Shown here piece by piece: positions 43,051 to 63,921 of a DNA stretch of 64,000 nucleotides. The stretch spans positions 1 through 64,000 of the forward strand of contig NZ_QAOW01000011.1 of assembly GCF_003051005.1 (NCBI RefSeq). The letters run 5' to 3'. The translations under genes were made by a program, and so were the position numbers. The stretch's first letter is position 1. Each line of letters begins with the position of its first letter. Source of the stretch: Rhodococcus sp. OK519 (GTDB taxonomy: Bacteria > Actinomycetota > Actinomycetes > Mycobacteriales > Mycobacteriaceae). The notes beneath the pieces are model-generated. The model made no database searches. It saw nothing but the letters and a program-made list of their open reading frames with translations, and was not told the DNA's origin.

Positions 43051-43238
43051 CACTCCCGGCCCTCCGGAGTAGACGGCCTTGACGTCACGCACACCCGCGG
43101 TCGGGAAGGCGTAGGTCAACACCGCCCTCCGGACACCGTCCGAGGTGTCCCGATCGGTGTCGCACCGTCATAGAACTGGACCGTGCCCGTCGCGTTCGAC
43201 GGCGTCACAGCCGCGGACAGCAGCACCGATGCATGCAG
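43051..43238 (-). pseudogene. Remnant of a ninth Ig-like-repeat gene, frameshifted
   Basis: The minus strand encodes VLLSAAVTPSNATGTVQFYD and GATPIGTPRTVSGG, then after a one-base frameshift near 43118-43127 continues as AVLTYAFPTAGVRDVKAVYSGG. Together these are most of one Ig-like domain, closest to the last (C-terminal) domain of paralogs A and B (YDGATPVG type). No signal peptide, head domain, stop in frame or C-terminal tail remains. The flanks 42987-43050 and 43239-43425 hold no gene I can support. Confidence 0.8.
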
Positions 43239-43425
43239 CCCCGGGGGTGGACGCATGCCGGAACCGTGCTCAGGAGAACACGTTTGCCGAACTCGACCGA
43301 CGCTCCCTCGACTCCGAACGCCTGCCACGCCTCACCCCAACTGCCCCGACGAATGATGTGCGATCACACGGTGTCGACGCGAGTCGGGACGATGGCGTGA
43401 AACAGATCGATCCGACCCGAACAGG

Positions 43426-43462
43426 CGTGAGGCCCCCGACCGAATGGGTCGAGGGCCTCACG
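43426..43462. terminator. Terminator after Ig-like gene A
   Basis: CGTGAGGCCC and GGGCCTCACG pair perfectly, with additional inner pairing CGACC/GGTCG, 25 bases past the stop of gene A. It separates the Ig array from the pseudogene. Confidence 0.85.
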
Positions 43463-43486
43463 TCGTGCCGGGTTGGGGAACTTCGG

Positions 43487-46360
43487 TCAGGAACCGAATC
43501 CCGAGCGGCCCACGCCGCTCAGTGAACCGAACAAGTTGCCGAGCGAGCCGGCGCTGCCGGTTCCCCCGCCGTCGCCGCCGTTGTCGGCCGGGGACACCTG
43601 GATTGTCTGCACCGGCGAGGTCGACGCCTTCGCGCCCTGGCCACCGGAGTAGCGGGCGGTGATCGCGTGCGCGCCCTCCGTGGTGAAGGTGTGTTGGAAC
43701 GTCGCGATGCCGTCGACGAAGCCGATGTTGCCGCTGATCGCTGTGTCACCGTCGTAGAACTGGACGGTGCCGGGCAGATTCGTTCCGCCCGTCACCGACG
43801 CCGACACCGTCACCGTCTGTCCGGCGGTGGCCGTCTGCGGCACGGTCACGGTAGTGGTCGTGACGACATCGTCCGGGGTCGGGACGGACACCTGCACCGT
43901 CTGTGACGTGGCCGTCGAGTTCGTGAAGCCCGCCGCACCGGTGAAGGTGGCAGCGATGGTGTGCGCACCGGCCGTATCGAACGTGTGGGGCAGCGTGGCA
44001 ACACCATTCGAGACTGCGATGGGGCCACCCAGGTTGTTACCGTCGACGAGGAACTGCACGGTGCCGGACGCGTTCGCAGGCGTCACCGTCGCGGACAGGA
44101 TGACTTCGGATTCGGTCTGGGCATCCGACGGCGCCGACAGCGCCAGCGACGTCTGCACCACCGGGTTACTGACGGTCACCGTCTGCGCGGTGGACGTCGA
44201 GTTCTCGAAGCCGGCGCTGCCGGTGAAGACCGCGGTGATGCTGTGGCTTCCAGCTGCCGCAAACGTCGTCTGCGTCGTCGCCGTACCGCTCGCGACGGTG
44301 ACCGGAGAACCGACGTTGGTGGCACCGACCTTGAACTGCACCGTGCCCGCCGCGTTGGCCGGATCCAGGGTCGCTGTCAGGGTTACCTGCTGACCGGTCT
44401 GCGCCGTCGGTGGAACGGTGAGCGTCGTGGTGGTGGTGATGTCCGCGACCACCGGGTCGGTAACCATGATCGACTTGGCAGCAGCCGTCGAGCCCAGAAA
44501 GCCCGTGCCGCCGGTGAACACGGCATTGATGCTGTGGTTGCCGGACGTTGCGAGCGAATGCTGCAGCGTGGCCGATCCGTTCGACACGGTGGCCGGGCCA
44601 CCGATCGGTGTCTGTCCGTCCAGGAACTGGACGGTTCCGGCGGCGTTGGCCGGATTCACGGTCGCGGTGAGGGTGATGCTCGTTCCCTTCACTGTCGTCG
44701 CCGGCACGGTGAGCGCGGTGCTGGTCGCGGCGTCCGGAACCACCGGGTTACTGACGGTCACCGTCTGCGCGGTGGCGGTCGAGCTCACGAAGCCTGCGTT
44801 GCCTGTGAACACCGCGGTGACGCTGTGACTGCCGGACGAGGTGAATGAGTGCTGCAGGGTTGCAGCACCGTTGGACACCTGCACCGCGGAACCGATGTTG
44901 TTGCCGTTGTCCTTGAACTGGACCGTTCCGGACGCGTTCGCCGGATCGAGATTCGCGGTCAGTGTCACCTGCTGCGCAGGCTCGGCGGTCGGTGGGACCG
45001 TGAGCGTCGTCGTGGTCGCCTGATCCGGAACGCTCACGGTGATCGCCTGCGCCGCCGCAGTGGACGTGGCGAACCCGGGGGCACCGGAGAACACAGCCGT
45101 GATGCTGTGCTGCCCTCCCGTCGAGAACGTGTGCGGCAGTTGTGCGGTGCCACCCGAGAGCGAAACCGGCGCACCGAGGTCCGTCCCGTTGTCCTTGAAT
45201 TGGACCGTGCCGCCGCCGGGACTCGGCGCGACACTCGCCGACAGCGTCACCTGAGTGCCGGTCTGCGCCGTCGGCGGGACCGTCAGCGTCGTCGTGGTCG
45301 CCTGATCCGGGACACTGACGTTGACCGTCTGTGCCGGAGCCGACGAGCCCACGAAGCCCGCACCGCTGAAGTCCGCGGTGATGCTGTGGCTACCCGCTGC
45401 CGAGAACGTGTGCTGCAGCGCTGCCACACCATTCGACACCTGCACCGGAGAGCCGATGTTCGCACCGTTGTCCTTGAACTGCACCGCGCCGACTGCATTC
45501 TGGGGCGTCACATTCGCCGACAACGTCACCGCCGTACCCGTCACCGCCGTCGCCGGCGCCGACACCGTCATCGACGTCTGCACCACCACCGACACCGGCT
45601 GCTGCGACGACTCCGACGGATTCGCCTTCGCCGTACCCAGATACTTCGCCTGCAACGGATGCACACCGGGCGATGTGAGTGTCCACGCGTACGTCGCGAC
45701 ACCCGACGCATTCAGGGCTCCCGAGCCCAGCTTCGTGGTCCCGTCGTAGAAGTCGACTGGATCACCCTGCGCGCCACCGGTCACCGTTGCGGTGAGCGTC
45801 ACGGACTGCCCCGCCGTCACCGGACCTGAGACCGCCGCCAACGACGTCGTCGTGGCATTCTTGGCTACTGTGACGGCCGGCCCCTTGTCCGAGTAGGTTC
45901 CCGAACCCAACGATCCGCCGTAATGCATCGTCGTCATCAACGGCACACCACGGGCGCAATCGGCACCGACCCGATAGTTGAACTCGAAGGTCTGCGATTG
46001 CGGACTGATGTTCGGATATACCGGCCAATTACCGGTAACCCGAACATAATCCGAGGCAACCTCCGGGCCACCGGTATTGCCACTCACATACGTCAGACAC
46101 GACGGATGGAGATCCTTCACCGCCTGGATCCACTCCACCGGAGTGCTGGTGCGCTCGAACTTGGTCGACACCGTGATGATGTCTCCCTCGTTCGGCGTCG
46201 CATTACTCACCGTCCGCGTGAACTTACTGCCCCCGTCCTGCCACGACACCACACCCTGCGCCGCACCAGCCGGACTCACGCCCACCGTCACTACGAACCC
46301 CGCAGCTACTGCACCGGCAGCTGCTGCGGCCACGATTGTCCGCGTTTTCGATCGGGCCAT
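43487..46360 (-). CDS. Ig-like-repeat surface protein A, 957 aa, 8 Ig domains
   Basis: Signal peptide (about 1-34, ending PAGAA). Head domain (about 35-170) with FTRTVSN, TVSTKFERT, VEWIQAVKDLHPSCLTYVSGN and MHYGGSLGSGTYSDKGP, with two Cys that could pair. Then eight Ig-like domains of about 90-95 residues, each marked by a GTVQF-type strand followed by a Phe/Tyr/Lys-Asp-Gly turn and a late HSI/HTI...F(T/S)G strand; they resemble Big_3-type bacterial Ig domains. The Asp/Gly-rich C-terminus ends SGFGS. No LPXTG motif or membrane anchor is seen. It is 144 bases downstream of gene B with no terminator or promoter module between, so likely co-transcribed with B. Function unknown; a surface stalk or adhesin role is inference. 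Confidence 0.9.
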   Translation of the reverse strand: MARSKTRTIVAAAAAGAVAAGFVVTVGVSPAGAAQGVVSWQDGGSKFTRTVSNATPNEGDIITVSTKFERTSTPVEWIQAVKDLHPSCLTYVSGNTGGPEVASDYVRVTGNWPVYPNISPQSQTFEFNYRVGADCARGVPLMTTMHYGGSLGSGTYSDKGPAVTVAKNATTTSLAAVSGPVTAGQSVTLTATVTGGAQGDPVDFYDGTTKLGSGALNASGVATYAWTLTSPGVHPLQAKYLGTAKANPSESSQQPVSVVVQTSMTVSAPATAVTGTAVTLSANVTPQNAVGAVQFKDNGANIGSPVQVSNGVAALQHTFSAAGSHSITADFSGAGFVGSSAPAQTVNVSVPDQATTTTLTVPPTAQTGTQVTLSASVAPSPGGGTVQFKDNGTDLGAPVSLSGGTAQLPHTFSTGGQHSITAVFSGAPGFATSTAAAQAITVSVPDQATTTTLTVPPTAEPAQQVTLTANLDPANASGTVQFKDNGNNIGSAVQVSNGAATLQHSFTSSGSHSVTAVFTGNAGFVSSTATAQTVTVSNPVVPDAATSTALTVPATTVKGTSITLTATVNPANAAGTVQFLDGQTPIGGPATVSNGSATLQHSLATSGNHSINAVFTGGTGFLGSTAAAKSIMVTDPVVADITTTTTLTVPPTAQTGQQVTLTATLDPANAAGTVQFKVGATNVGSPVTVASGTATTQTTFAAAGSHSITAVFTGSAGFENSTSTAQTVTVSNPVVQTSLALSAPSDAQTESEVILSATVTPANASGTVQFLVDGNNLGGPIAVSNGVATLPHTFDTAGAHTIAATFTGAAGFTNSTATSQTVQVSVPTPDDVVTTTTVTVPQTATAGQTVTVSASVTGGTNLPGTVQFYDGDTAISGNIGFVDGIATFQHTFTTEGAHAITARYSGGQGAKASTSPVQTIQVSPADNGGDGGGTGSAGSLGNLFGSLSGVGRSGFGS
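45545..45657 (-). repeat. 113-bp block identical to 47669-47781 (genes A and B)
   Basis: These 113 bases of gene A, encoding the junction of its first and second Ig domains, are identical base for base to 47669-47781 of gene B, while the flanking bases differ. This indicates recent duplication or gene conversion. Confidence 0.9.
46095..46200 (-). repeat. 106-bp block identical to 48219-48324 (genes A and B)
   Basis: Part of the head-domain coding region (VSTKFERT to HPSCL) is identical between gene A and gene B over 106 bases, with divergence on both sides. Confidence 0.9.
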
Positions 46361-46504
46361 TTCGTTTCCCCTTCTTCAGAGCACTCTTCGGCCCCGCGGA
46401 TTTCGTGAACCCGGCGGCTCGAGTGATCGCTTCGGATAGCACCATCCACGCCGGCCCGACCCCGGGCGCAGAGGTTTGGAACTGATTGAGCGGACTGTGT
46501 GGAG

Positions 46505-48481
46505 TCAGGAACCGAAACCACTCAGTGAGCCGAGCGAACCCATTCCTCCCCCGCCATCTCCGCCGCCCGCGGCGACCTGGACGGTCTGGGGTGCCGACGT
46601 TGACGCCTGCGACCCGGTTCCGCCGGAGTAGACCGCCGTGATCTGGTGCGCACCAATGGCGTTGAACGTGTGCGGGAGCACCGCCACACCGTTTTCGAGC
46701 GCGACCGCTGCGCCGACAGGCGTGGCGCCGTCGTAGAACTGGACTGTTCCAGTCAGCGCGCCGCTACTCGTGACGCGGGCCGAGAGGCTGATCTGCTGTC
46801 CCTGGGTGGCAGTTGCCGGAGCGGTCAGCGCCGTCGAAGTCACCACATCGCCGGGGGCAGGATCGGACACCTGGACCGATTGTGCCGTCGACGTCGAACC
46901 GGAGAACCCGGCACCGCCCGTGAAGACGGCGGTGATCGAATGGGATCCTGTCTCGGTGAATGTGTGCTGCAGTGCGGCGACACCGTTCACGACGGAGACC
47001 GACGATCCGATGTTGTCGTTGCCGTCCTTGAACTGCACGGTGCCCGACACATCGGCGGGGCTCACCGCCGCGGACAGTGCCACTGCCGACCCGGTCTGCG
47101 CCGTCGCCGGAACTGTTACGGCAGTATCGGTCTGGACATCGGGAACCTGCGGGTCGGTCGCGATCACCGACTTCGCGGGCGCCGTGGATCCGAGGAATCC
47201 TGGGCTGCCCGTGAACACGGCGGAGATGCTGTGGTTGCCTGCCTCTGTGAAGGTGTGGCTGAGCTGAGCCTTGCCACTTGCAACAGTCACCGGCGAGCCG
47301 ATATTGCTGGCGCCGTCCTTGAACTGCACGGACCCGGACGCGTTTGCCGGGGTGAGGTTGGCCGTCAGAATCACGGGCGTTCCGGTCTCCGCGGTGGAGG
47401 GTACCTGGAGCGAGGCGGTCGTCTGGACGTCCGGATTGTTCACTGCCACCGGCTGCGGAGCGGACGTCGCGGTGGCGAAGCCCGCGCCTGTGAATTCGGC
47501 CGTGATACTGCGGTTACCGGCCGTCGTGAAGGTGTACTGCGTCGTCGCGACACCATTCGTCACAGCGACCGGAGAGCCGATGTTCGCACCGTTGTCCTTG
47601 AACTGCACCGTGCCCGACGCGTTCGAGGGAGTCACATTCGCCGACAACGTCACCGCAGTACCCGTCAACGCCGTCGCCGGCGCCGACACCGTCATCGACG
47701 TCTGCACCACCACCGACACCGGCTGCTGCGACGACTCCGACGGATTCGCCTTCGCCGTACCCAGATACTTCGCCTGCAACGAACGCGCGCCCGACGTCGT
47801 CGGCGTCCATGTCAGCGTCGCAACACCCGAACCGTTCAACGCACCAGAGCCGACCTTGGTAGCACCGTCGAAGAAATCAACCGAGTCACCCTGCGCGCCT
47901 TTGGTCACCGTCGCAGTGAGCGTGACGGACTGACCTGACGTCACCGGGCCGGGGACTGCAGCGAGCGTCGTCGTCGTGACGTTCTTACTCACCGTGATCG
48001 CCGGGCCCTTGTCCGAGTAGGTTCCCGAACCCAACGACCCGCCGTAATGCATCGACGTCGCCAACGGCACACCACGGTCGCAATCCGCACCCACCCGATA
48101 GCTGAACTCGAAGGTCCGCGACTTCGGATTGATGTTCGGGTACACATCCCAATTGCCCGTCACCCGAACATAATCCGGCTTTATCTCCGGGTTGGAAGTA
48201 TTACCACTGACATATGTGAGACACGACGGATGGAGATCCTTCACCGCCTGGATCCACTCCACCGGAGTGCTGGTGCGCTCGAACTTGGTCGACACCGTGA
48301 TGATGTCTCCCTCGTTCGGCGTCGTATTGCTCACCGTCCGAGTGAACCGACTATTGCCGTCATCCCACGTCACGGACCCCGACGCCGCACCCGCGGCACC
48401 GACACCAAACGCAACCGCGCATCCTGCAGCAACCGCGGCCGCAGCACCCGCCGCCATCCAGCGAACTCTTTTGTCAGACAT
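46505..48481 (-). CDS. Ig-like-repeat surface protein B, 658 aa, 5 Ig domains
   Basis: Same plan as A: signal peptide (MSDKRVRW..., ending GAAGAA), head domain of the A type (WDDGNSRFTRTVSN, HPSCLTYVSGNTSNPE, YRVGADCDRGVPL, MHYGGSLGSGTYSDKGP), five Ig-like domains, and the tail GSLGSLSGFGS. The ATG at 48481 has GAGAGGGAA upstream, a leader sequence almost shared with genes C and G, so I prefer it to a start 14 codons earlier. The terminator of gene C lies 57 bases upstream of the start, and a degenerate form of the family promoter overlaps that hairpin. Probably first gene of a B-A unit. Confidence 0.9.
   Translation of the reverse strand: MSDKRVRWMAAGAAAAVAAGCAVAFGVGAAGAASGSVTWDDGNSRFTRTVSNTTPNEGDIITVSTKFERTSTPVEWIQAVKDLHPSCLTYVSGNTSNPEIKPDYVRVTGNWDVYPNINPKSRTFEFSYRVGADCDRGVPLATSMHYGGSLGSGTYSDKGPAITVSKNVTTTTLAAVPGPVTSGQSVTLTATVTKGAQGDSVDFFDGATKVGSGALNGSGVATLTWTPTTSGARSLQAKYLGTAKANPSESSQQPVSVVVQTSMTVSAPATALTGTAVTLSANVTPSNASGTVQFKDNGANIGSPVAVTNGVATTQYTFTTAGNRSITAEFTGAGFATATSAPQPVAVNNPDVQTTASLQVPSTAETGTPVILTANLTPANASGSVQFKDGASNIGSPVTVASGKAQLSHTFTEAGNHSISAVFTGSPGFLGSTAPAKSVIATDPQVPDVQTDTAVTVPATAQTGSAVALSAAVSPADVSGTVQFKDGNDNIGSSVSVVNGVAALQHTFTETGSHSITAVFTGGAGFSGSTSTAQSVQVSDPAPGDVVTSTALTAPATATQGQQISLSARVTSSGALTGTVQFYDGATPVGAAVALENGVAVLPHTFNAIGAHQITAVYSGGTGSQASTSAPQTVQVAAGGGDGGGGMGSLGSLSGFGS
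47669..47781 (-). repeat. 113-bp block identical to 45545-45657
   Basis: Counterpart in gene B of the identical block in gene A. Confidence 0.9.
48219..48324 (-). repeat. 106-bp block identical to 46095-46200
   Basis: Counterpart in gene B of the identical head-domain block in gene A. Confidence 0.9.
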
Positions 48482-48526
48482 AGGTTCCCTCTCGACGGCT
48501 GGCGTTGCCGGCCGTTTCTGCAATCG

Positions 48527-48545
48527 ACTGGTAGACCCCTCGTCC
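48527..48545 (-). promoter_or_regulatory. Degenerate family promoter module upstream of gene B
   Basis: The plus strand reads ACTGGTA (48527-48533) then GACCCCTCGTCC (48534-48545), which is ACTNTATA plus GGACNNNNGTCC with one palindrome mismatch and one base fewer in the -10 part. It overlaps the left arm of the gene C terminator, so both functions may share the sequence. Weaker than the copies before C, D, F and G. Confidence 0.35.
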
Positions 48546-48570
48546 GGCCTCGAGCTCAGGCCGGACGAGG
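48538..48570. terminator. Terminator after Ig-like gene C
   Basis: Perfect 13-base arms CCTCGTCCGGCCT (48538-48550) and its complement (48558-48570) around a 7-base loop, 20 bases past the gene C stop. Confidence 0.85.
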
Positions 48571-48589
48571 AGTGAGATCCTGGCGTGGA

Positions 48590-50011
48590 CTATCCGCCGA
48601 GCGAGCCGAATCCGCCGCCGAGCGAGCCGGCGCTGCCGCCTTCTCCTCCGTCACCACCGTTGGTGGCGGGAGCCACGGAAACCGACAGATCATCGTTCGA
48701 GGCATTGACCGTTCCGGCGCCCGAGTACTCGGCCCGGATCACGCGCTGACCCTCGACCGCCGGGGTCCAACTCAGCGATGCGACGCCGTTGCCGTCGAGA
48801 TTGGCCGTCCCGATGACGGTGTCGCCGTCCTTGAATGTCACAGTGCCGCCGGCATTCCCCGGAGTCACCTGCGCCGAGATATTCTGCGCTACACCGACCT
48901 TTGCTCCGACAATGTTCGCGATCGCGGTGGCCGATTCGCTGTTGTCAATGGGCTTGGCCGCCACGTTCACCGTTGCAGTTCCGGTCGATCCGACGACGCC
49001 GTCCCGGCCCGAGAAGACCGCGGCGATCGTGTGGCTACCCGCGGTTGTCGGCGTCCACTGGTAGGCGGCCTTGCCGGCACCGTTCACGGCAACCTGGGCC
49101 AGCACCTCGGCGCCGTCCTTGAACAGGACGGTGCCGCCCGCACCCGCCGGCGAAACGGTGGCCTCGAGGGTCGACGCCCGCCCCACCTGAGCGCCCGTGA
49201 CAGCGCCGATCGCGGTGTTCGACCCTGCATCCACCTGAGCGACATCGATGGTCTGCTGTCCGGACTGAGAGGCGTTCGCCCGCACCGTTCCGGGGAACTT
49301 CGCCATGACTGTGTGCGAACCGCGGGTCGACGGGGTCCAGGCGTAGGTTGCAGTGCCGTTGGCGTCGAGGTTGCCCGTTCCGACCTTGGTGTTGCCGTCG
49401 AAGAACTCGACCGCGTCGCCCTGTGCTCCGCCTGTCACGGTCGCCACCAGATTCGTGGCCTGACCGACCTGAGCGCTCGCGATCTGGGCGAGGTTCGTCG
49501 AGGTGGTGTTCTTGCTGACCGTGATCGACGGACCCTTGTTCGAGTAGGTTCCCGAACCCAGCGAACCGCCGTAGTGCATCGTCGTCGACAGCGGCACACC
49601 ACGAGCACAGTCGGCACCGACCCGATAGTTGAACTCGAAGGTCTGCGACTTCGGGCTGATGTTCGGATACACCGGCCAATTACCGGTCACCCGAACATAA
49701 TCCGAGGCAACCTCCGGGCCACCGGTATTACCGCTGACATAGGTCAGGCACGACGGATGCAGATCCTTGACTGCCTGGATCCACTCCACCACACCGCCGG
49801 TACGCTCGAACTTCGTCGACACCGTGACGATGTCGCCCTCGCTCGGCGTCGTATTGCTCACCGTACGCGTGTACTTGCTGCTGCCATCGTTCCACGTCAC
49901 CGAACCCGGCGCTGCGCCAGCGACTCCCACACCGGCGGTGACCGCAAATCCTGCTGCCACTGCGAACGCGCTGAGTCCCCCGACGAACCGACGGATATTC
50001 CTGTCAGACAT
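48590..50011 (-). CDS. Ig-like-repeat surface protein C, 473 aa, 3 Ig domains
   Basis: Signal peptide (about 1-33, ending GVAGAA), A-type head domain (WNDGSSKYTRTVSN, HPSCLTYVSGNTGGPE, YRVGADCARGVPL, MHYGGSLGSGTYSNKGP) and only three Ig-like domains. These domains are more diverged than in the other paralogs, with GTVLF and GTVTF in place of GTVQF, and the tail ends GFGSLGG instead of FGS. It has its own promoter module at 50230-50249, about 215 bases upstream, and its own terminator, so it is a single-gene unit. ATG at 50011 with GAGAGGAA upstream. Confidence 0.9.
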   Translation of the reverse strand: MSDRNIRRFVGGLSAFAVAAGFAVTAGVGVAGAAPGSVTWNDGSSKYTRTVSNTTPSEGDIVTVSTKFERTGGVVEWIQAVKDLHPSCLTYVSGNTGGPEVASDYVRVTGNWPVYPNISPKSQTFEFNYRVGADCARGVPLSTTMHYGGSLGSGTYSNKGPSITVSKNTTSTNLAQIASAQVGQATNLVATVTGGAQGDAVEFFDGNTKVGTGNLDANGTATYAWTPSTRGSHTVMAKFPGTVRANASQSGQQTIDVAQVDAGSNTAIGAVTGAQVGRASTLEATVSPAGAGGTVLFKDGAEVLAQVAVNGAGKAAYQWTPTTAGSHTIAAVFSGRDGVVGSTGTATVNVAAKPIDNSESATAIANIVGAKVGVAQNISAQVTPGNAGGTVTFKDGDTVIGTANLDGNGVASLSWTPAVEGQRVIRAEYSGAGTVNASNDDLSVSVAPATNGGDGGEGGSAGSLGGGFGSLGG

Positions 50012-50229
50012 GCAATTCCTCTCGACGCCGACCCTCGATGAATGCCGATCCGAAAGGTGTCGCCGATGGCGTCGTGTACCGGGCCATGTCCCGACCCCCT
50101 CCAGAGCACGGTCCCGCGGTTTCGGCTCACCTGCCCACCGACCCCACGGGTTCTACGCCCAGGGTGCGGCCCGACTCCGGTCACCTGGCCGTTTCGCCTC
50201 GACGGCGTGCATCGAGCGAAACGCGACTT

Positions 50230-50249
50230 ACTGTATCGGACGTGCGTCC
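50230..50249 (-). promoter_or_regulatory. Family promoter module (gene C)
   Basis: Minus strand: GGACGCACGTCC (50238-50249), a GGAC-N4-GTCC palindrome, one base, then ATACAGT (50230-50236) as -10 box. Predicted start near 50223 leaves a leader of about 210 nt, in which GCCCGACTCCGG (plus strand, 50169-50180) is shared with the leader of gene D at the same distance (50 bases from the -10). Confidence 0.6.
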
Positions 50250-50278
50250 AGGTCGGTTCGGAAACGGCAGAAACGTAA

Positions 50279-50313
50279 ATCGAGGCCCCCACGCTGCACG
50301 TGAGGGCCTCGAT
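50279..50313. terminator. Terminator after Ig-like gene D
   Basis: ATCGAGGCCC and GGGCCTCGAT are perfect 10-base arms, 12 bases past the gene D stop and upstream of the gene C promoter module. Confidence 0.8.
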
Positions 50314-50324
50314 TCGACTGTCGG

Positions 50325-51572
50325 TCAGGAACCGAACATCGAGCTTCCGTTGCCCAAGCTGCCGAGACTGCCGGCGCCCCCGGGCGGCGTCGGGGCATCG
50401 GCAACCTGGACGGTCTGTGCAACGGACGCCGAGCCGTCGACACCCGCACCACCCGTGTAGGCAGCGCTGATCTGGTGCGCACCCGACACGTCGAATACGT
50501 AGTCGAGTGCGACGACACCGTTCCCGACGGGCAGCCGCGGCCCGATCGGCGTGCCCCCGTCGTAGAACTGCACCGTCCCCGGCAGGGTCAGGGCAGTCGA
50601 CGAGACCTGTGCGGACAGGCGCACCGCAACACCGACCGTTGCGGTCTGCGGTGCAGTCATGATCGTGCTCGACTCGACGTCGTCCTGGCCTCGGACGGAC
50701 ACCTCCACGATGCGTCCGGGCGAGGTCGAGTTGGAGAATCCGCCACTACCCGCGAACGTCGCGGTGATCGGCTTGGATCCCGCCGTTGCGAAGGTGTGTG
50801 ACGTCGAGGCGATTCCGTTGACCACCGGAATGGGCGAACCGATGTTCGTGATGCCGTCCTTGAACTGCACGGTGCCGGTCGCGTTCGCCGGGGAAACCGA
50901 AGCCGAGAGCTGGACGGAATCGCCCGTCTTCGCGCTCGGCGGCACCGTCACCGTGGCGCTGGTCGCGGTGGACGCCTGCTGAACGGACAGGTTCAACCCG
51001 CTCAACGGATTCCACCGCTGCGTGTCATTGAAGGAGTAGATGTTGAACTCCATGCCGGTGGTTCGAGGTCCGGGCTGAGCGTTCGCCGCAACCTTGTAGG
51101 TGAACGTCAGGGTCGCGCCCTTGTCGAGCAGTGCCAGCTTGCAGGCCGCACCGATGCAGTTCCCACTGGCGGTCCAGCTGAGCCGGACAGCGCCCGAGAC
51201 CGGGTCCTGGGCCGGAGTCCCGTCGAAGGTGCCACCCTTGCCGAAGCCTCCGGCAACAGGCCCGCTCCGCCAGACTTTGCCGCTGACCGATTGGAGTACG
51301 TAGTCGGCCGGTGGGAAGTCCGTGAAGTTCTGCATGTACCGGCTACCGCTCGCACTGAACGTGACGGTGGTCGTCACGGTGTCGCCCGGGAACGGGTTGG
51401 GGTTGTCCACCGTCTTGGTGGCACTGATGTTCGACGTCGTCACCGTTTGTGACATCGGATCGGCGGAGGCGACACCACCACCCAGCAACGCCTGACCGAC
51501 ACCGAGCGCGGCAACGGCCAACGTCCCGACAAATACCTTCGACACAGCTCGCCGCATGACCGATCGGGCCAT
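50325..51572 (-). CDS. Ig-like-repeat surface protein D, 415 aa, 2 Ig domains, DUF11-like head
   Basis: Signal peptide (about 1-37, ending GVASADP). The head (about 38-205) differs from A-C: KTVDNPNPFPGDTVTTTVTFSA followed by a beta-rich region with two Cys (CIGAAC) and a long strand pattern, similar to DUF11/isopeptide-type adhesin domains. Two Ig-like domains follow (GTVQFKDGITNIG, GTVQFYDGGTPIG) and the tail ends SSMFGS. I start at the ATG at 51572, with AAGGAG five bases upstream. Own promoter module at 51724-51743 and terminator, so a single-gene unit. Confidence 0.9.
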   Translation of the reverse strand: MARSVMRRAVSKVFVGTLAVAALGVGQALLGGGVASADPMSQTVTTSNISATKTVDNPNPFPGDTVTTTVTFSASGSRYMQNFTDFPPADYVLQSVSGKVWRSGPVAGGFGKGGTFDGTPAQDPVSGAVRLSWTASGNCIGAACKLALLDKGATLTFTYKVAANAQPGPRTTGMEFNIYSFNDTQRWNPLSGLNLSVQQASTATSATVTVPPSAKTGDSVQLSASVSPANATGTVQFKDGITNIGSPIPVVNGIASTSHTFATAGSKPITATFAGSGGFSNSTSPGRIVEVSVRGQDDVESSTIMTAPQTATVGVAVRLSAQVSSTALTLPGTVQFYDGGTPIGPRLPVGNGVVALDYVFDVSGAHQISAAYTGGAGVDGSASVAQTVQVADAPTPPGGAGSLGSLGNGSSMFGS

Positions 51573-51723: not shown

Positions 51724-51743
51724 ACTTTATAGAACAAACGTCC
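51724..51743 (-). promoter_or_regulatory. Family promoter module (gene D)
   Basis: Minus strand: GGACGTTTGTTC (51732-51743; one mismatch to GGAC-N4-GTCC) directly followed by TATAAAGT (51724-51731). Predicted leader about 145 nt, with GCCCGACTCCGG (plus strand, 51663-51674) at the same distance from the -10 as in gene C. Confidence 0.6.
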
Positions 51744-51775
51744 AACTTCGGACAGTTTTCGCTACAGACGGATCA

Positions 51776-56300: not shown

Positions 56301-56321
56301 AGTTTTGCCGGACAAATGTCC
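56301..56321 (-). promoter_or_regulatory. Family promoter module (gene F)
   Basis: Minus strand: GGACATTTGTCC (56310-56321), a perfect GGAC-N4-GTCC palindrome, followed by GGCAAAACT (56301-56309), a -10 region weaker than in C, D and G. Predicted leader about 80 nt. Confidence 0.5.
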
Positions 56322-56350
56322 AGTTGATTTCCAGGGGACGTCGAAACGGC

Positions 56351-56395: not shown

Positions 56396-59300
56396 TCAGG
56401 CGCCGAGGCGGAACCCGCTCAGACTCCCCAGCGACCCGAAGTCCATCGAGCCGCTACCGCCGGTACCGCCGCCGGAGTCGACGACGTCGAGTACCTGAAT
56501 CGGCGATGTCGAACCTGCGACACCCGTACCACCCGAGTACACCGCATGAATCTGGTGCGGTCCGTCCGACGTGAACGTGTGGACCAGCTCGGCCACGCCG
56601 TTCACCACCGGGACCGGTCCGCCGATCTCGACACCGCCATCGAAGAACTGCACCGTGCCCGGCAACGACGGCGCGCCGATCACCTGTGCCTTCAACGTGA
56701 ACGACGTCCCTGCGGTCGCCGACTGGGCCGACGACACCACTACCGACGACACCACATCCGACGGATTCGGAGCGGACACCACCACCGGACGCTGCGTCGA
56801 TGTCGACCCTTCGAACCCGGCATCAGCTGTGTACACCGCGGACACTTGGTGTGTCCCCGCCGCCGTGAAGGTGTGGCCGAGGGAGGCAGATCCATTCACC
56901 AGCGCCACCGGCGACCCGATCGGGCTGCCGTTGTCACGGAACTGCACCGAACCGGTCGGCACCGCCGTCCCCGACTGCGCCTGCACCGTTGCCGACAACG
57001 TCGTCTCCACACCCGTCGTCGCCGAACCCGGAGCACCGACCAGCGTCGACGTCACAACATCGACCGGCGCTGGATCCGACACCGTCACGTTCTGGACTGG
57101 CGCCGTCGAGCCGGCGAAACCCGTTGTGCCGGAGTACACGGCCGACACGGCAAACGGACCAGCCACGTTGAAGGTGTACTGCATGCCCGCGTGACCGCTG
57201 CCGTCCACCGCGACCGGAACACCCACATCGACTCCGGCCACCTTGAACTGGACGGTGCCGGCGGTCGGAACCGGCGACACCGCCGCCGAGAGAGTCACCT
57301 GCTGGCCGGTCTCCGCGGTCGTGGGAGCGGTCACCGTCGTGGTGGTGTTCTCGTCCGGAACAACCGGAACGGAAACCGTCACGTTCTGAGCCGAAGCCGT
57401 CGAATTCGTGAACCCGGCAGCACCGGTGAACTCGGCCGTGACCGCGTAGGTGTCAGCAGCATTGAACGTGTACGGCAGGGTCACCGTGCCGCCACTGACC
57501 GCCTGAGACGCACCCACCGGAGCGCCGTTCACCTTGAACTGCACCGACCCCTGGGCTCCCGGCGGGGTGACCGTCGCCGACAAACTCACCGACTGACCCG
57601 TGGCGGCCGCGGCCGGCGCAGTCACCGACAGCGACGTCTCGACATCCGGATCGGCAACCGTGATCGAACCCGGCGCATTCGCCGACACATCAGCGAAGCC
57701 GGATCCACCCGTGAACAAGGCACCGATGCTGTGCGAACCCGTACCCGTGAAGGTGTGCGGAAGCGTCGCAACACCATTCACCACCGCAACCGGAGAACCG
57801 ATTGGCGCACCATTGTCCGTGAACTGAACAGTGCCGACCGCATTGGACGGGCTGACCGTCGCCGACAGATCCACCGACGAACCAGTCGTCGCCGAACCCG
57901 GCACCTGAACCGTCATCGAAGTCAACACATCCGGATCGGTAACCGCCACGGTCTGCGCCGACGCAGACGAGTTCGTGAACCCGGCAGCACCGATGAACTC
58001 AGCCGTCACCGCGAACGAGCCAGCCGCGTTGAACGTGTGAGACAAGCTCGCCGAACCACCGGACACGGCTTGCGGCGCACCCACAGGATTGCCGTTCACC
58101 TTGAACTGCACCGAACCCTGAGCATTCGACGGGCTGACCGTCGCCGACAGAGACACCGACTCACCCGTCTCGGCCGAACCCGGCGCAGTCACCGAAAGCG
58201 ACGTCGTCACATCAGGATCCGACACCGTCACCGTCTGCGCCGTCGCCGACGAATTCACGAACCCGGCAGCGCCGGTGAACTCTGCAGTAACCACGAACGA
58301 ACCAGCGGCATCGAACGTATGCGGCACCGACGCCACACCACCGGTCACCGTCACCGGCGAACCAACAGCGACGCCACCGACCTTGAACTGCACCGCACCC
58401 TGAGCATTCGACGGGCTGACCGTCGCCGACAGAGACACCGACTCACCCGTCTCGGCCGAACCTGGTGCAGTCACCGAAAGCGACGTCGTCACATCAGGAT
58501 CCGACACCGTCACCGTCTGCGCTGCCGCCGACGAGTTCACGAACCCGGGCCCCGCAACGAAGTTCGCGGCAACACTGTGCGAACCCGCACCCGTAAACGT
58601 ATGCGGGAGCATCGCAGATCCATTGGTCACAGGAACCGGAGAACCGATCGGAGAGCCGTTATCGGTGAACTGCACCGTGCCCTGAGCATTGGACGGGCTG
58701 ACCGTTGCGGTCAGGTCCACCGACGAACCCGTCGTCGCCGAGCCCGGAAGACTCAGCGAAAGTGACGTCGTCACATCCGGGTTCGAAACAGCGACGGACT
58801 GCGGCGCAGCGGCGGAAGAGGCAAATCCGGGTCCGGCGATGAACTCTGCCGTGATGTCATGCGAGCCTGCAGCACCGAACGTGTGCTGTACCGATGCCTG
58901 ACCGGCGGCGACGGCGACCGGTGATCCGATGGCCGTTCCGTTGTCCTTGAACTGCACCGCGCCCGCGGCATTCGCCGGCGTCACCGATGCCGACAATGTC
59001 ACCGGCGTGCCCGTCGACGCGGACGCCGGCACTTGAAGCGTCGTCGACGTAGAGGCGTTCACCGTCACGGTTTGCGCCGAAGCCGAGGAGTTCACGAATC
59101 CGCTCCCCGCCACGAAATCCGCGGTGATGCTGTGCGCACCTGTGGTCGTGAACGTGTGCGGCAGTGTCGCCTGGCCGCCCGCCACCGACACCGGCGAACC
59201 GATGTTCGCCCCGTTGTCCTTGAACTGCACCGTCCCCGCCGCATTCGACGGGGTCAGCGACGCCGACAGTGTCACCGGTGCACCCGCCACCGCCGTGGCC

Positions 59301-60112
59301 GGCACCGACACCGACACACCGGTGGTCACCGGCGCATTCACCTGGACATTCTGCGCCGCCGACTGCGACGAGTTCGCGATCACCGTGCCCGGGAACTTCG
59401 CCGTCAGACTGCGCGCACCGGCCGTGGTCGGCGTCCACGCGTAAGTCGCAACCCCCGACGCATTCGACAAGCCCTGCCCGAGCTTCGTCGTCCCGTCGTA
59501 GAACTCGATCGTGCTGCCCTGCCCCGCACCGGTCACTGAGCCGGTCAGAGTGACCGACTGTCCCGTCAGCATTGGTGTCGGCACCGCGGACAGCGTCGTG
59601 GTGGTGGCATCCTTCGCCACCGTGATCGTCGGCCCCTTGTCCGAGTAGGTGCCGCTACCGAGGCTGCCCCCGTAGTGCATCGTGGTCATCAGAGGAGTCG
59701 CGCGGGCACAACTCGCGTTGACCAGGTAGTTGAACGTGAAGGTCTGCGACTTCGGGCTGATGTTTGGATACACAGGCCAGTTACCCGTCACGCGGGTGTA
59801 GTCCGCTGCGACCTCCGGGCCGGAGGTATTGCCACTGACATACGTCAGGCACGCCGGGTGGAGGTCCTTCACGGCCTGAATCCACTCCACCGCGCCACCG
59901 GTGCGCTCGAACTTTGTGGAGACCGCGACGGTCTCCCCCACCGACGGAGTCGAATTGCTGACCGTGCGGGTGAATTTGCTGTTGCCGTCGGACCAAGTCA
60001 CCGACCCCTCCGCCGCCCCGGCCGATCCGATGCCCACTGTCGCCGCGAATCCCGCGGCCAGCGCGAAAACGCTTACTCCGCCGACTATTCGGCGTATTTC
60101 CCTGCCAACCAT
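56396..60112 (-). CDS. Ig-like-repeat surface protein G, 1238 aa, 11 Ig domains
   Basis: The longest paralog. Signal peptide (about 1-33, ending GSAGAA), A-type head (WSDGNSKFTRTVSN, HPACLTYVSGNTSGPE, MHYGGSLGSGTYSDKGP), eleven Ig-like domains and the tail GSMDFGSLGSLSGFRLGA. Several internal domains are near copies, for example those reading SLSVTAPGSAETGESVSLSA, encoded by tandem units 282 bases apart at 58122-58267 and 58404-58549. Its last two domains and its tail closely match gene H. Own promoter module at 60279-60298, about 165 bases upstream, and strong terminator. ATG at 60112 with GAGAGGGAA upstream. Confidence 0.9.
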   Translation of the reverse strand: MVGREIRRIVGGVSVFALAAGFAATVGIGSAGAAEGSVTWSDGNSKFTRTVSNSTPSVGETVAVSTKFERTGGAVEWIQAVKDLHPACLTYVSGNTSGPEVAADYTRVTGNWPVYPNISPKSQTFTFNYLVNASCARATPLMTTMHYGGSLGSGTYSDKGPTITVAKDATTTTLSAVPTPMLTGQSVTLTGSVTGAGQGSTIEFYDGTTKLGQGLSNASGVATYAWTPTTAGARSLTAKFPGTVIANSSQSAAQNVQVNAPVTTGVSVSVPATAVAGAPVTLSASLTPSNAAGTVQFKDNGANIGSPVSVAGGQATLPHTFTTTGAHSITADFVAGSGFVNSSASAQTVTVNASTSTTLQVPASASTGTPVTLSASVTPANAAGAVQFKDNGTAIGSPVAVAAGQASVQHTFGAAGSHDITAEFIAGPGFASSAAAPQSVAVSNPDVTTSLSLSLPGSATTGSSVDLTATVSPSNAQGTVQFTDNGSPIGSPVPVTNGSAMLPHTFTGAGSHSVAANFVAGPGFVNSSAAAQTVTVSDPDVTTSLSVTAPGSAETGESVSLSATVSPSNAQGAVQFKVGGVAVGSPVTVTGGVASVPHTFDAAGSFVVTAEFTGAAGFVNSSATAQTVTVSDPDVTTSLSVTAPGSAETGESVSLSATVSPSNAQGSVQFKVNGNPVGAPQAVSGGSASLSHTFNAAGSFAVTAEFIGAAGFTNSSASAQTVAVTDPDVLTSMTVQVPGSATTGSSVDLSATVSPSNAVGTVQFTDNGAPIGSPVAVVNGVATLPHTFTGTGSHSIGALFTGGSGFADVSANAPGSITVADPDVETSLSVTAPAAAATGQSVSLSATVTPPGAQGSVQFKVNGAPVGASQAVSGGTVTLPYTFNAADTYAVTAEFTGAAGFTNSTASAQNVTVSVPVVPDENTTTTVTAPTTAETGQQVTLSAAVSPVPTAGTVQFKVAGVDVGVPVAVDGSGHAGMQYTFNVAGPFAVSAVYSGTTGFAGSTAPVQNVTVSDPAPVDVVTSTLVGAPGSATTGVETTLSATVQAQSGTAVPTGSVQFRDNGSPIGSPVALVNGSASLGHTFTAAGTHQVSAVYTADAGFEGSTSTQRPVVVSAPNPSDVVSSVVVSSAQSATAGTSFTLKAQVIGAPSLPGTVQFFDGGVEIGGPVPVVNGVAELVHTFTSDGPHQIHAVYSGGTGVAGSTSPIQVLDVVDSGGGTGGSGSMDFGSLGSLSGFRLGA
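58122..58549 (-). repeat. Tandem 282-bp Ig-domain repeat within gene G
   Basis: The stretch from 58122 and the stretch from 58404 are nearly identical for about 140 bases; they differ at a few positions only. The period of 282 bases equals one 94-residue Ig domain. The array is coding and in frame. Confidence 0.85.
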
Positions 60113-60278
60113 GCACTTCCCTCTCGACGACGGCAGTCGGCCGCCAACTCAACGGATCAGGTCTCGACCTGGGACACTGCGCCGATGAGATTAGAGCCCG
60201 GGGCGCGCTGCAGGGCCCATGCCAACCCCTGCAGCCAAACCGCAGCCCGACTCCGCGTCTGTCTGAAATGCGAGTCGA

Positions 60279-60298
60279 ACTCTATAGGACAAACGTCC
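60279..60298 (-). promoter_or_regulatory. Family promoter module (gene G)
   Basis: Minus strand: GGACGTTTGTCC (60287-60298), a perfect GGAC-N4-GTCC palindrome, directly followed by TATAGAGT (60279-60286). Predicted leader about 160 nt. GCCCGACTCCG occurs in the leader (plus strand, 60245-60255) but nearer the -10 than in C and D. Confidence 0.65.
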
Positions 60299-60329
60299 AG
60301 GTCGAGGAGGATTGGCCAGAAACGACTGT

Positions 60330-60357
60330 GGCCCCCCGCGCACTAGCGCGGAGGGCC
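60330..60357. terminator. Terminator after Ig-like gene H
   Basis: GGCCCCCCGCGC pairs with GCGCGGAGGGCC with one mismatch around a 4-base loop, 24 bases past the gene H stop. Confidence 0.8.
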
Positions 60358-60381
60358 GCAGCATATTTCACACGTCAGGCA

Positions 60382-63300
60382 TCAGGATCCGAAACGGAAT
60401 CCGCTCAGGCTGCCGAGGGACCCGAAATCCAGAGACCCGGCACCACCAGCGCCTCCACCGGACTGCACGACGTCGAGGGTCTTCGTCTCCGACGTCGAGC
60501 CCGCTACGCCGATGCCGCCCGAGTACACCGCATGAATCTGACGCGGTCCGCTCTGCGTGAAGCTGTGGGTGAGCTCGGCGAACCCGTCGACCACCGGAAC
60601 CGGGCTACCGATCTCGATGCCACCGTCGAAGAACTGCACCGTGCCCGGCAACGTCGCCGCACCGATCACCTGTGCCTTCAACACGTACGGCGTGCCTACC
60701 GTCGGCGTCTGCGTCGACGCGATCACCACCGACGACACCACATCCGACGGATTCGGCGCCGACACCACCACCGGACGATCCATCGACGTCGACCCCACGA
60801 ACCCGGCATCCGCGGTGTACGCCGCGGACACCTGGCGCGTCCCCACCGAAGTGAAGATGTGGTCGATCGAAGCTGAACCGTTCACCAGCGTCACCGGCAA
60901 CCCGATCGGGCTGCCGTTCTCACGGAACTGCGCCGAACCCGTCGGCGCCGCCGTGCCCGACTGCGCCTGCACCGTGACCGACAACGTCGTCTGCGTACCC
61001 GTCGTCGCCGAGCCCGGAACACCGACCAACGTCGATGTCGCGACATCGACCGGAGCCGGATCCGTCACTGTCACGGTCTGCGCTGACGCCGTCGAGTTCG
61101 TGAACCCGGCAGCACCGGAGAACTCGGCGGTCACCGCGAACGAGCCCGCGGCGTTGAACGTATGCGGCAGCGATGCCACACCACCGGACACCGTCTGCGG
61201 CGAACCGACAGCCACACCGCCGATCATGAATTGCACCGTGCCCTGCGCACTCGACGGCGACACCGTCGCCGACAGGCTCACCGATTCACCGGTCGTGGCC
61301 GTGGCCGGCGCAGTCACCGACAGCGACGTCTGCTGATCGGGGTCGGCGACCACGATCGATCCCGGCGTGGTCGCCGACGCATCCGCGAAGCCCGTACCAC
61401 CCGTGAACGATGCACCGATGCTGTGCGACCCCGCCGCGAACGTGTGCGGCAGCGTCGCAACGCCATTCACCACCGAAACCGGAGAACCGATCGGGTTCCC
61501 GTTGTCAGTGAACTGCACCTCACCCTGCGCACTCTGCGGGGTCAGGTTCGCAACCAGGTTCACCGGTGAACCGGTCGTCGCCGAGCCCGGAACCTCGACC
61601 GTCAACGACGTCTGCTGATCGGGATCCGAAACGACCACGCTTTGCGCGGACGCCGACGAGTCCGTGAACCCGGCAGCGCCGGAGAACTCAGCGGTCACCG
61701 CGAACGAACCCGCGGCGTTGAACGTCCACGGCAGGCTCGCCGTGCCGCTGGACACCGTCACCGGCGCACCGACATCGACACCACCGACCTTGAACTGCAC
61801 AGTGCCACCGGACGGAGCCGGAGCAACCGTTGCCTCCAACGTCACCGCCGTGCCCGTCTGCGCCATGCCCGGCACCGTCACCGTGGTGGTCGTCTGCTGA
61901 TCCGGATCACTGACCACGATCGACGCCGGCGACGAGGCCGACGCATCCGTGAAGCCCGGCCCGCCGGTGAACGACGCGCCGATGCTGTGTGAACCGGCCG
62001 TGAACGTATGCGACAGTGTGGCAACACCATTCACCACCGAAACCGGCGATCCGATCGGGTTCCCGCCGTCGGTGAACTGCACCAAGCCCTGAGCGCCCGC
62101 CGGTGACACCGCCGCCGTCAGGTTTACCGAGGTTCCGGTGACCGCGGTCGCCGGAACATTCAATGTCAACGAGGTGACCGCATCCGGAACGGACACCGCC
62201 ACGGTCTGAGCAGCGGCCGTCGCGTTGGTGAACCCGGCGGCACCGGCGAACTCGGCTGTCACCTCGAAGGAGCCAGCCGCGCTGAACGTGTACGGCAGGC
62301 TCGCGGCACCACCGGAGACGGCCTGCGGCGTACCCACCGGGTTACCGTTGACCCTGAACTGCACCTCGCCCTGCGCCGTCGACGGCGTCACCTGCGCCGA
62401 GAACGTGAGGGACTCACCCGTCTCGGCCGCGCCCGGCGCCGTCACCGACAACGACGTCTCGACATCCGGATCCGCCACCGTCACGGTCTGCGCAGTCGCC
62501 GACGAGGTCGTGTAACCAGCTCCGGCGACGAACTCGGCGCCAACACTGTGCGCGCCCGAAGAACCGAACGTGTGCGAAAGCGTCGCAACACCGTTCGCCA
62601 CCGAAATCGGGCCACCGATCGGATTACCGTTATCGGTGAACTGCACCGCACCCTGCGCGCCCGACGGAGTCACCGTTGCCGCGAGATCGACCGACGAACC
62701 TGTCACGGCCGACGCCGGAACATCCAGCGTCAACGAAGTCACCACATCCGGGTCCGAAACCGTCACCGACTGCGGGCTCGACGTCGAACCACCGAAACCC
62801 GCAACCCCCGAGTACACCGCCGTCACCTCGAACGGGCCAGCGGCGTTGAACGTGTACGGCATCGTCGCGTTACCCGAACCGTCGACGTTCACCGGAGTAC
62901 CCACCAGGCCACCGGCCACCGTGAACTGAACCGTGCCACCCGCTGGAACCGGAGACACACTGGCAGACAACGAGACCGACTCACCCGTCAGTGCAGAAAC
63001 CGGCGTCGACACGGTCGTCACCGTCTGCTGATCGCTGACCGTGACGGTCTGCGGGACGGACGTCGAGCTGGAGTAGCCACTACCTGCGACGAACTCGGCG
63101 GTGATCGTGTGCCCGCCGCTCGTCGGGAAGATGTGCGAATGGGTCGCCACACCGTTGACCGGGGTTACCGGTGAACCGATGTTGGTGCCGCCGTCCTTGA
63201 ATTGCACCTGGCCATTTGCGGCGGACGGGTTCACGGTGGCCGTGAACGTCACAGGCTGCCCCGTGGTGGCCGTAGCCGGAACTTGCAGCGTCGTGGAAGT

Positions 63301-63921
63301 GGCCACGATCGGATCCGCGACCTCGACCTTGACGCCGAACGGGTTGGCGCCAAACTGATTACAGCCGCCACCGACCTTGTAATTGCAGTAATTGATGCCG
63401 CTGTCGTACACCCCGAACGGCTGGGTGGCCGGCACCAGGTAGGTGACGTCGAAGATCAGGCCCTGACCGGACTTGACGACGAAACCGCCCCCGAGGGCCG
63501 AGCAACCACCGTTGCACTTCGCTTCGACCACATTGGTGCCGAGTCCACTGATCGTCGCCCGGTTCGTGACACCGGTGTACGTCAACGTTGCGCTCTGAGC
63601 CACGAACCCGGCCGGCGCGGTGTCGCGCACCCACGTTGTCCACTTCTCGGGAGTGCCGCCCGTGTGATTGATTACCGTCTTGTAGGTGACCAGGTCACCC
63701 GGGTGAACCGTCGACGGACCGACCACCGACTTGGTGTAGTTCATCAGGTCCTGCGTCGCCGTGTTCGTGGTCGGGAAGGTGGCCGCGGTTGCCGGGGCCA
63801 GACCACCCACCGCCAGCCCGACGGCGGCGATACCTGCCAACAGCGGCGTTGCCACTCTTCGGCGTTTCATGGCTACCGCCACCACGGTCGACACGAATAA
63901 TCGTGCCCTTGTTCGGGACAT
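60382..63921 (-). CDS. Ig-like-repeat surface protein H, 1179 aa, 10 Ig domains, DUF11-like head
   Basis: Signal peptide (basic start, core around LLAGIAAVGLAVGGLAPATA). The head (about 55-215) is DUF11-like: DLMNYTKSVVGPSTVHPGDLVTYKTVINHT, then VRDTAPAGFVAQSATLTYTG, with four Cys (CNGGC and CNYKVGGGC) likely in disulfides. Ten Ig-like domains follow, many near copies of one another and of those in G; tail GSLDFGSLGSLSGFRFGS. I start at the ATG at 63921 with AAAGGA upstream; an ATG 17 codons downstream would also give a signal peptide. Its promoter would lie largely beyond the window end; no family palindrome is seen up to position 64000. Confidence 0.88.
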   Translation of the reverse strand: MSRTRARLFVSTVVAVAMKRRRVATPLLAGIAAVGLAVGGLAPATAATFPTTNTATQDLMNYTKSVVGPSTVHPGDLVTYKTVINHTGGTPEKWTTWVRDTAPAGFVAQSATLTYTGVTNRATISGLGTNVVEAKCNGGCSALGGGFVVKSGQGLIFDVTYLVPATQPFGVYDSGINYCNYKVGGGCNQFGANPFGVKVEVADPIVATSTTLQVPATATTGQPVTFTATVNPSAANGQVQFKDGGTNIGSPVTPVNGVATHSHIFPTSGGHTITAEFVAGSGYSSSTSVPQTVTVSDQQTVTTVSTPVSALTGESVSLSASVSPVPAGGTVQFTVAGGLVGTPVNVDGSGNATMPYTFNAAGPFEVTAVYSGVAGFGGSTSSPQSVTVSDPDVVTSLTLDVPASAVTGSSVDLAATVTPSGAQGAVQFTDNGNPIGGPISVANGVATLSHTFGSSGAHSVGAEFVAGAGYTTSSATAQTVTVADPDVETSLSVTAPGAAETGESLTFSAQVTPSTAQGEVQFRVNGNPVGTPQAVSGGAASLPYTFSAAGSFEVTAEFAGAAGFTNATAAAQTVAVSVPDAVTSLTLNVPATAVTGTSVNLTAAVSPAGAQGLVQFTDGGNPIGSPVSVVNGVATLSHTFTAGSHSIGASFTGGPGFTDASASSPASIVVSDPDQQTTTTVTVPGMAQTGTAVTLEATVAPAPSGGTVQFKVGGVDVGAPVTVSSGTASLPWTFNAAGSFAVTAEFSGAAGFTDSSASAQSVVVSDPDQQTSLTVEVPGSATTGSPVNLVANLTPQSAQGEVQFTDNGNPIGSPVSVVNGVATLPHTFAAGSHSIGASFTGGTGFADASATTPGSIVVADPDQQTSLSVTAPATATTGESVSLSATVSPSSAQGTVQFMIGGVAVGSPQTVSGGVASLPHTFNAAGSFAVTAEFSGAAGFTNSTASAQTVTVTDPAPVDVATSTLVGVPGSATTGTQTTLSVTVQAQSGTAAPTGSAQFRENGSPIGLPVTLVNGSASIDHIFTSVGTRQVSAAYTADAGFVGSTSMDRPVVVSAPNPSDVVSSVVIASTQTPTVGTPYVLKAQVIGAATLPGTVQFFDGGIEIGSPVPVVDGFAELTHSFTQSGPRQIHAVYSGGIGVAGSTSETKTLDVVQSGGGAGGAGSLDFGSLGSLSGFRFGS

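Follow-up and report, generated by a model that had tools for sequence, protein, structure and literature searches.

A shared C-terminal tail on an Ig-stalk protein array of Rhodococcus sp. OK519 and on unrelated exported proteins, a candidate mycomembrane anchoring tag

Rhodococcus sp. OK519 carries a tandem array of genes for immunoglobulin (Ig)-stalk proteins in the window analysed here, which comprises positions 1 to 64,000 of contig NZ_QAOW01000011.1 (64,000 nucleotides; hereafter C11). These proteins close with a short Gly/Ser/Leu/Phe tail, and, judged from sequence, several genera of the family use this tail as a common terminal tag of exported proteins. The conserved tag is the main point of interest, while its lipid nature is what we infer. 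By analogy with lipid-modified corynebacterial proteins, our preferred but still tentative reading is that the array supplies graded mycomembrane stalks anchored by the tail, most likely as an acceptor of O-mycoloylation. Going further, the GS(L)x..FGS-COOH tail might be a general, sequence-recognisable mycomembrane anchoring tag in Rhodococcus-type bacteria, and thus the first consensus-like signal for O-mycoloylation or mycomembrane sorting. The Ig arrays would be the largest client family of that tag seen here.

The array lies at 43487-63921 on the minus strand, where a sequence-only reading had proposed eight same-strand genes, each encoding a signal peptide, a head, 2-11 Ig domains and a Gly/Ser-rich tail. 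This architecture was confirmed by the Pfam profile PF16640 (Big_3_5) and by our own reading of the sequence. Against the curated Pfam cut-off of 35.5 bits, g1-g8 scored 100-508 bits (8/8 above it), so that the profile search recovered the expected Ig fold in all eight; a chance origin of the repeats was ruled out by these scores. Ig domains were counted with a profile of our own, built from the array repeats, which gave 8, 5, 3, 2, 5, 5, 11 and 10 for g1-g8, and the total of 49 agrees with the earlier estimate of about 49. The heads are about 150-270 residues long and belong to two families, here called alpha and delta. Genes are spaced 62-313 bp apart (given the chosen starts), and no other gene was seen between them, as had been claimed. 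Export of the proteins, also assumed earlier, is suggested by the signal peptides, which were judged by sequence with no dedicated predictor behind these calls. The genes, with the positions of their tails, are the following:

43487..46360, minus strand: g1, signal peptide, alpha head, 8 Ig domains; tail (...GSLGNLFGSLSGVGRSGFGS) at 43490..43591
46505..48481, minus strand: g2, signal peptide, alpha head, 5 Ig domains; tail (...GSLGSLSGFGS) at 46508..46570
48590..50011, minus strand: g3, signal peptide, alpha head, 3 Ig domains; tail (...GSLGGGFGSLGG) at 48593..48658
50325..51572, minus strand: g4, signal peptide, alpha head (weakly DUF11-like), 2 Ig domains; tail (...GSLGSLGNGSSMFGS) at 50328..50399
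51808..53844, minus strand (alternative start 53892): g5, signal peptide, alpha head (weakly DUF11-like), 5 Ig domains; tail (...GSLAGLPFGS) at 51811..51876
53907..56213, minus strand: g6, signal peptide, delta head (no Pfam family), 5 Ig domains; tail (...GTGSLSFGS) at 53910..53960
56396..60112, minus strand: g7, signal peptide, alpha head, 11 Ig domains, internal 282-bp tandem repeats; tail (...FGSLGSLSGFRLGA) at 56399..56479
60382..63921, minus strand: g8, signal peptide, alpha head (weakly DUF11-like), 10 Ig domains; tail (...FGSLGSLSGFRFGS) at 60385..60465
C11:64091-67903, beyond the window: g9, the ninth gene of the array, delta head, 10 Ig domains
43040..43410, minus strand: g0 remnant, the fragments left of a tenth gene of the array (tblastn against the g0 frames of relatives), with a partial PF16640 match at C11:43119-43232

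The extent first proposed holds for the eight genes of the window, but the array is larger: g9 follows past the window, and g0, decayed here, has an open frame in Prescottella equi, in P. agglutinans and in three other genomes. A second Ig site on contig C6 (92-96 kb) holds two more such genes with 3 + 4 (= 7) Ig domains. Genome-wide, 66 of 68 PF16640 places exceeded the cut-off; contig C10 gave one weak match below it.

The Gly/Ser tail had been seen in the sequence-only reading, which missed its conserved terminal signature, common to unrelated exported proteins of several genera. All 11 proteins of the two Ig sites of this genome have a Gly/Ser/Leu/Phe tail with almost no charge, and seven of them end in FGS. 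The home genus of the array is Prescottella (the former Rhodococcus equi group), and 100 of its array frames (102 minus one that extends past its contig and one whose end is masked and shifted) were compared with 300 non-array genes, called by a simple gene caller of our own in the window and a 400-kb sample of the same genome. An FGS end was found in 57/100 array frames and 0/300 background genes (Fisher p about 5e-42, with paralogues treated as independent), GSL within the last 20 residues in 88/100 versus 1/300, and at least nine G, S, L or F among the last 15 residues in 93/100 versus 3/300. GSL, SLG and FGS were all missing from four array frames, each a broken frame of genome G009. The last 15 residues consist of 33% G, 21% S, 16% L and 8% F, with Thr at 5% and Pro at 3%, and Gly occupies position -2 in 91% and Phe position -3 in 64% of the Prescottella frames. 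Nine genomes in four further genera supplied 60 alpha, delta or Ig frames, overlapping and broken ones included, of which 45 end in FGS and 30 in IFGS, with Ser at -1 in 90% and Phe at -3 in 77%; the length of the linker changes between genera while the last residues stay alike. That the tail is a property of all genes was ruled out, as GSLG in the last 40 residues or an FGS end occurred in 0/300 background genes.

Beyond the Ig proteins, the DNA pattern for GSLGSL was found at 21 places in the OK519 genome versus six for a reversed control. Nineteen of these places are in frame and fall in 16 distinct proteins, including three array proteins, and two have no frame. All 16 proteins look exported (a signal peptide by eye or a known array gene), and in 13 of them the motif lies no more than 30 residues from the stop. 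The non-Ig tail carriers include RCC1 and YVTN/lactonase propellers and a phosphodiesterase. In relatives, the stretch also directly follows the signal peptide, for example in a Tat (twin-arginine translocation)-exported flavo-oxidase-like protein and in a tyrosine-phosphatase-like protein (names given by eye), and a related GSLGS stretch stands before the C-terminal membrane helix of some carriers. As a separate observation, frames of about 260-390 residues for exported proteins (loci L016 and L019, with relatives L040, L048, L049 and L214) have GSLG near the mature N-terminus and a C-terminal tail; L016 had no Pfam match.

The pattern was also tallied in ten of 31 genera, and since relatives share proteins and one protein may hold several copies, the hits are not independent. 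In Prescottella (14 genomes), GSLGSL occurred at 3.40 per Mb versus 1.02 for the control (ratio 3.3, p 2e-22), and the ratio was 3.8, 2.4, 2.3, 3.0 and 2.1 in genera g13, g4, g23, g21 and g22 (p 9e-7 to 5e-3; genus labels, not gene names). Among 30 GSLGSL loci from genera g4, g13 and g23, about 19, representing 18 proteins of which some are truncated 5', were judged exported and in frame, 11 of these loci with the motif no more than 24 residues from the stop; two were cytoplasmic or membrane enzymes, two had no frame, and the rest looked antisense or ambiguous. The ending GN(hydrophobic)FGS-stop had 69 matches in 25 of 301 family genomes versus 10 for the reversed pattern, and 55 of the 69 fell in genus g23, where the control had 0. 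A collagen-like protein (Gly-Pro-Ala repeat) of genus g6, at locus L196, was seen by eye to end in GLGNIFGS. In the literature, a search for GSLGS returned only unrelated papers.

Short, similar C-termini on unrelated exported proteins are likewise known from the LPXTG and PEP-CTERM systems, but the FGS tail has neither a transmembrane helix nor a basic end, and a related stretch also occurs at the mature N-terminus. LPXTG/sortase anchoring was rejected, as the 11 tails of this genome have no such motif, hydrophobic helix or basic end, and a PEP-CTERM-like tag was rejected, as no NCBIfam CTERM model matched g1-g8 or the four further carriers scanned, and the tails are short and nearly uncharged. 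R. equi is described as having sortases and few typical substrates (PMC2947987). By description, the tail resembles the arrangement in R. equi VapA, a Prescottella protein held at the surface through a disordered terminal segment, with no lipobox or LPXTG (PMC10903876).

The array products would further resemble the O-mycoloylated proteins PorA, PorH, PorB and ProtX of C. glutamicum as envelope proteins with Ser in short Gly/Ser-rich, often terminal segments. PorH ends in NFSS and is modified at Ser56, PorB likewise ends in NFSS, and the modified Ser37 of ProtX is the penultimate residue (PMC5310785). The NFSS end of PorH and PorB resembles the FGS end here. PorB is modified at Ser-7 and Ser-98 within disordered termini, and about 30 proteins have O-mycoloylation sites in flexible Ser/Gly/Ala segments, likened to GLSGS and GSSFL (PMC11066868). 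The array proteins and the other carriers fit this description, being putatively exported, in a mycolic-acid bacterium, and with Ser in a Gly/Ser/Ala-rich segment whose flexibility is suggested by its composition. Cmt1 orthologues are reported in Rhodococcus and Nocardia, while mycobacteria are said to have no strict ones (PMC11066868). MytC alone can mycoloylate PorA in vitro (PMC11927696), and PorH and ProtX are linked to the cell wall (PMC12632848). Unlike the O-mycoloylated Corynebacterium proteins, for which no strict consensus is known, the proteins described here are large stalk proteins with a recognisable, repeated terminal signature.

On this analogy, the array would encode a graded set of mycomembrane surface proteins exported by their signal peptides, in which the Ig stalk (2-11 domains) would hold out the N-terminal head and the Gly/Ser/Leu/Phe tail, usually ending in FGS, would retain the protein at the mycomembrane. 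The tail would most likely act as a flexible acceptor, one or more of its Ser residues being O-mycoloylated by a mycoloyltransferase of the Cmt1/MytC type, and the mycoloylated C-terminus would then insert in the mycolic-acid layer with the head outward. Targeting by mycoloylation was reportedly the subject of a 2017 paper in PNAS. The position of the stretch at both the mature N-terminus and the C-terminus favours an acceptor site. Given that stalk lengths are fixed across species in some genes and variable in others, a layered display is suggested, in which the long stalks would change through recombination between repeats. The usual role of such stalks is adhesion or cell-cell contact.

Several observations weigh against anchoring by a mycoloylated, general tag. 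The near-fixed C-terminal end exceeds the needs of a flexible Ser acceptor, and the modified Ser of PorH and ProtX is penultimate, whereas in the FGS tail Ser is last and Gly penultimate. A strict consensus is absent from the Corynebacterium O-mycoloylome as it is described (PMC11066868). Surface exposure in C. glutamicum did not change when PorH or PorA alone lost its modified Ser (PMC12632848). The GSLGSL excess is not significant in genera g46 (ratio 1.6) and g9 (1.5), and the ratio is below 1 in g6 and g149, genera supposed to have mycolic acids. The GN(hydrophobic)FGS-stop ending has 0 matches in the OK519 genome and one in its genus, where endings differ. Additionally, a delta-head query of a plasmid collection matched seven Rhodococcus plasmids, and both plasmid proteins that were read have no tail.

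The near-fixed FGS-COOH end favours instead a C-terminal signal for a dedicated mycomembrane translocation or assembly factor, comparable to the outer-membrane beta-signal and involving no lipid. Such a signal would account for a motif at the very C-terminus with conserved -1, -2 and -3 positions on different folds, but GSLGS stretches also occur after a signal peptide or before a membrane helix, where a free C-terminal motif would be unreadable, and 43 of the 100 Prescottella frames have no FGS end. We consider it less likely, and keep both the acceptor-site and the C-terminal-signal readings, with the acceptor site ahead. The tails could also be O-glycosylation sites or non-covalent binders of the envelope (of arabinogalactan or mycolate glycolipids, for example) rather than lipidated segments; although they are Ser-rich, flexible and nearly uncharged, they are low in Thr (5%) and Pro (3%), both typical of O-mannosylated stretches in actinobacteria, and their Leu/Phe content suggests a lipid phase, which makes this explanation improbable. 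Ordinary tandem-duplicated Ig adhesins with a functionless low-complexity C-terminus appear similarly doubtful, because, although the array paralogues are akin in heads and repeats and tails common within the array therefore need no special cause, common ancestry alone would not readily explain similar tails on unrelated folds at other loci or last residues that stay alike between genera while the linker length changes.

Its domain architecture makes the array a variant form of the fibrillar surface proteins with Ig stalks. The earlier statement that it could not be matched to a described system is too broad: proteins of this kind were found across the genus, and relatives of the heads in about ten of 31 genera. 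A signal peptide followed by a repeat stalk, one mark of a fibrillar adhesin, was found in the array proteins (signal peptides judged by sequence), and Big_3_5 (PF16640) fibrillar adhesins likewise have an N-terminal head, an Ig stalk of variable repeat number and a presumed C-terminal surface anchor. Unlike them, the array has no LPXTG, groups nine paralogues with two head families, and includes many small members (2-5 Ig domains).

Alignment of the g1, g2, g3 and g7 heads against genomes of named species found five loci, all in Prescottella: one in P. equi DSM 20307, two in P. agglutinans and one in each of two P. defluvii strains. PF16640 was present in 14/14 genomes of the genus, with 7 to at least 71 matches each, and in 23 other family genomes (one per genus) it had 0-1 matches in 19 and 4, 9, 20 and 47 in the remaining four. 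The gene order of the array is largely kept within Prescottella. Literature searches on Rhodococcus or Prescottella Ig-like proteins, adhesins and surface proteomics, and on mycomembrane sorting and mycoloylation, gave nothing on the array among the matches listed, and "Ig-like domain repeat protein" with Rhodococcus gave no match. The R. equi genome paper (PMC2947987) makes no use of the term "Ig-like" in its main text.

Variation of stalk length was assessed on array stretches from eleven further Prescottella genomes, in which gene coverage differs by genome; orthology was assigned through gene order, head and tail rather than a tree, genomes G007 and G008 fell outside the sample, and the broken frames of G009 (79% complete) and g7 of G010 (where the contig ends) were excluded from the counts. 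Wherever orthology was assignable and the frame whole, the Ig number was fixed at 3 in g0 and g3, 2 in g4 and 5 in g2, g5 and g6, whereas it ranged over 5-9 in g1, 11-15 in g7, 6-10 in g8 and 5-10 in g9. Two adjacent g7 repeats share 83% DNA identity, and g7 also shows a tandem unit of 282 bp. Identity is 86% and 78% for the last two Ig domains of g7 and g8, and 80% and 85% for the first two of g1 and g2. These high identities make the repeats look recombined, and together with the fixed and variable counts they suggest that some stalk lengths are held while the long ones drift.

Of the 102 array frames, 96 gave a head after the predicted signal peptide: 71 alpha, 24 delta and one broken frame. 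The sequence-only reading had proposed a profile search for DUF11, which found a weak likeness in the alpha head: 17 of 21 members matched Pfam DUF11 at E <=1 (best 4e-5), and the first member scored 19 bits against a cut-off of 24.6. For NCBIfam TIGR01451 (cut-off 24 bits), g4, g5 and g8 stayed below threshold at 17.6, 22.9 and 18.6 bits, and g1, g2, g3, g6 and g7 gave no match. The delta head belongs to no Pfam family (best E 0.03), and a PDB profile search with this head and the first Ig domain found no solved relative; the same search with the alpha head and Ig found one clear relative, 3lso_A, in the Ig region (E 6e-9). No ligand domain was found in the array proteins; adhesion, aggregation and a surface coat, the functions raised earlier, are candidate roles. 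Delta heads occur in 45 of 151 sampled family genomes (11 of 31 genera) and alpha heads in 41 of 151 (10 of 31 genera), with further head clusters in other-genus genomes G394, G374, G349 and G033. In genus g23, loci L147 (G394) and L149 (G374) hold arrays of at least ten small alpha-head proteins, mostly ending in N(I/T/V/L)FGS. Stand-alone delta domains annotated as hypothetical were seen on Rhodococcus plasmids (L219:2779-3558 and L220:2779-3558), and a g3 query of the plasmid collection matched only Streptomyces and Variovorax, mainly through the Ig part.

An array-specific promoter module had also been proposed, and this claim holds in part. The element TGGACGTTTGTCC is an imperfect inverted repeat, in many cases with TATA(A/G)AGT-like letters after it; it was spotted by eye in k-mer output and then tested on the genus with at most two mismatches. 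Of 94 array frames in the genus, 34 have it upstream, and none of 357 windows taken within array genes contains it, which supports a regulator common to part of the array. The three matches in the window are not above chance, however (24 of 100 shuffles reach three), and the 400-kb sample has five. The matches in the window are as follows:

51732..51744, minus strand: TGGACGTTTGTTC element before g4
56310..56322, minus strand: TGGACATTTGTCC element before g6
60287..60299, minus strand: TGGACGTTTGTCC element before g7

Related double sites stand before the second C6 Ig gene (L010:7918-7951), and one TGGACGTTTGTCC-like site lies downstream of a tail protein (L021). Upstream of the nine genes of this genome, no exact 10-mer was shared by at least four, no 12-mer by three and no 8-mer by five. 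A sigma-70 scan gave 0 promoters versus 1.5 expected, five terminators were found versus 9.2 expected, and an Rfam scan of 42000-64000 had no match.

Beyond g9 lie a divergent PaaI-like thioesterase frame and then serS, both recognised by eye. The other flank holds an acyltransferase, a HAD hydrolase, an amidase, glf, glfT2 and two Ag85-fold esterases, which bears out the earlier placement of the surface-type Ig proteins beside an arabinogalactan/mycolyl locus:

26252..29352, minus strand: two Ag85-fold (PF00756) esterases, candidate mycoloyltransferases, the first with four LGFP repeats

How proteins reach the mycomembrane and stay there is an open question, and two papers state that no mycoloylation consensus is known (PMC5310785, PMC11066868); a short terminal signature on unrelated exported proteins would make a testable rule of it. 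Within a single locus, the array itself offers Ig stalks in a natural gradation of length, and the tail may be of use in surface display. If the proposal is true, the tail would predict the surface proteome of several genera from sequence.

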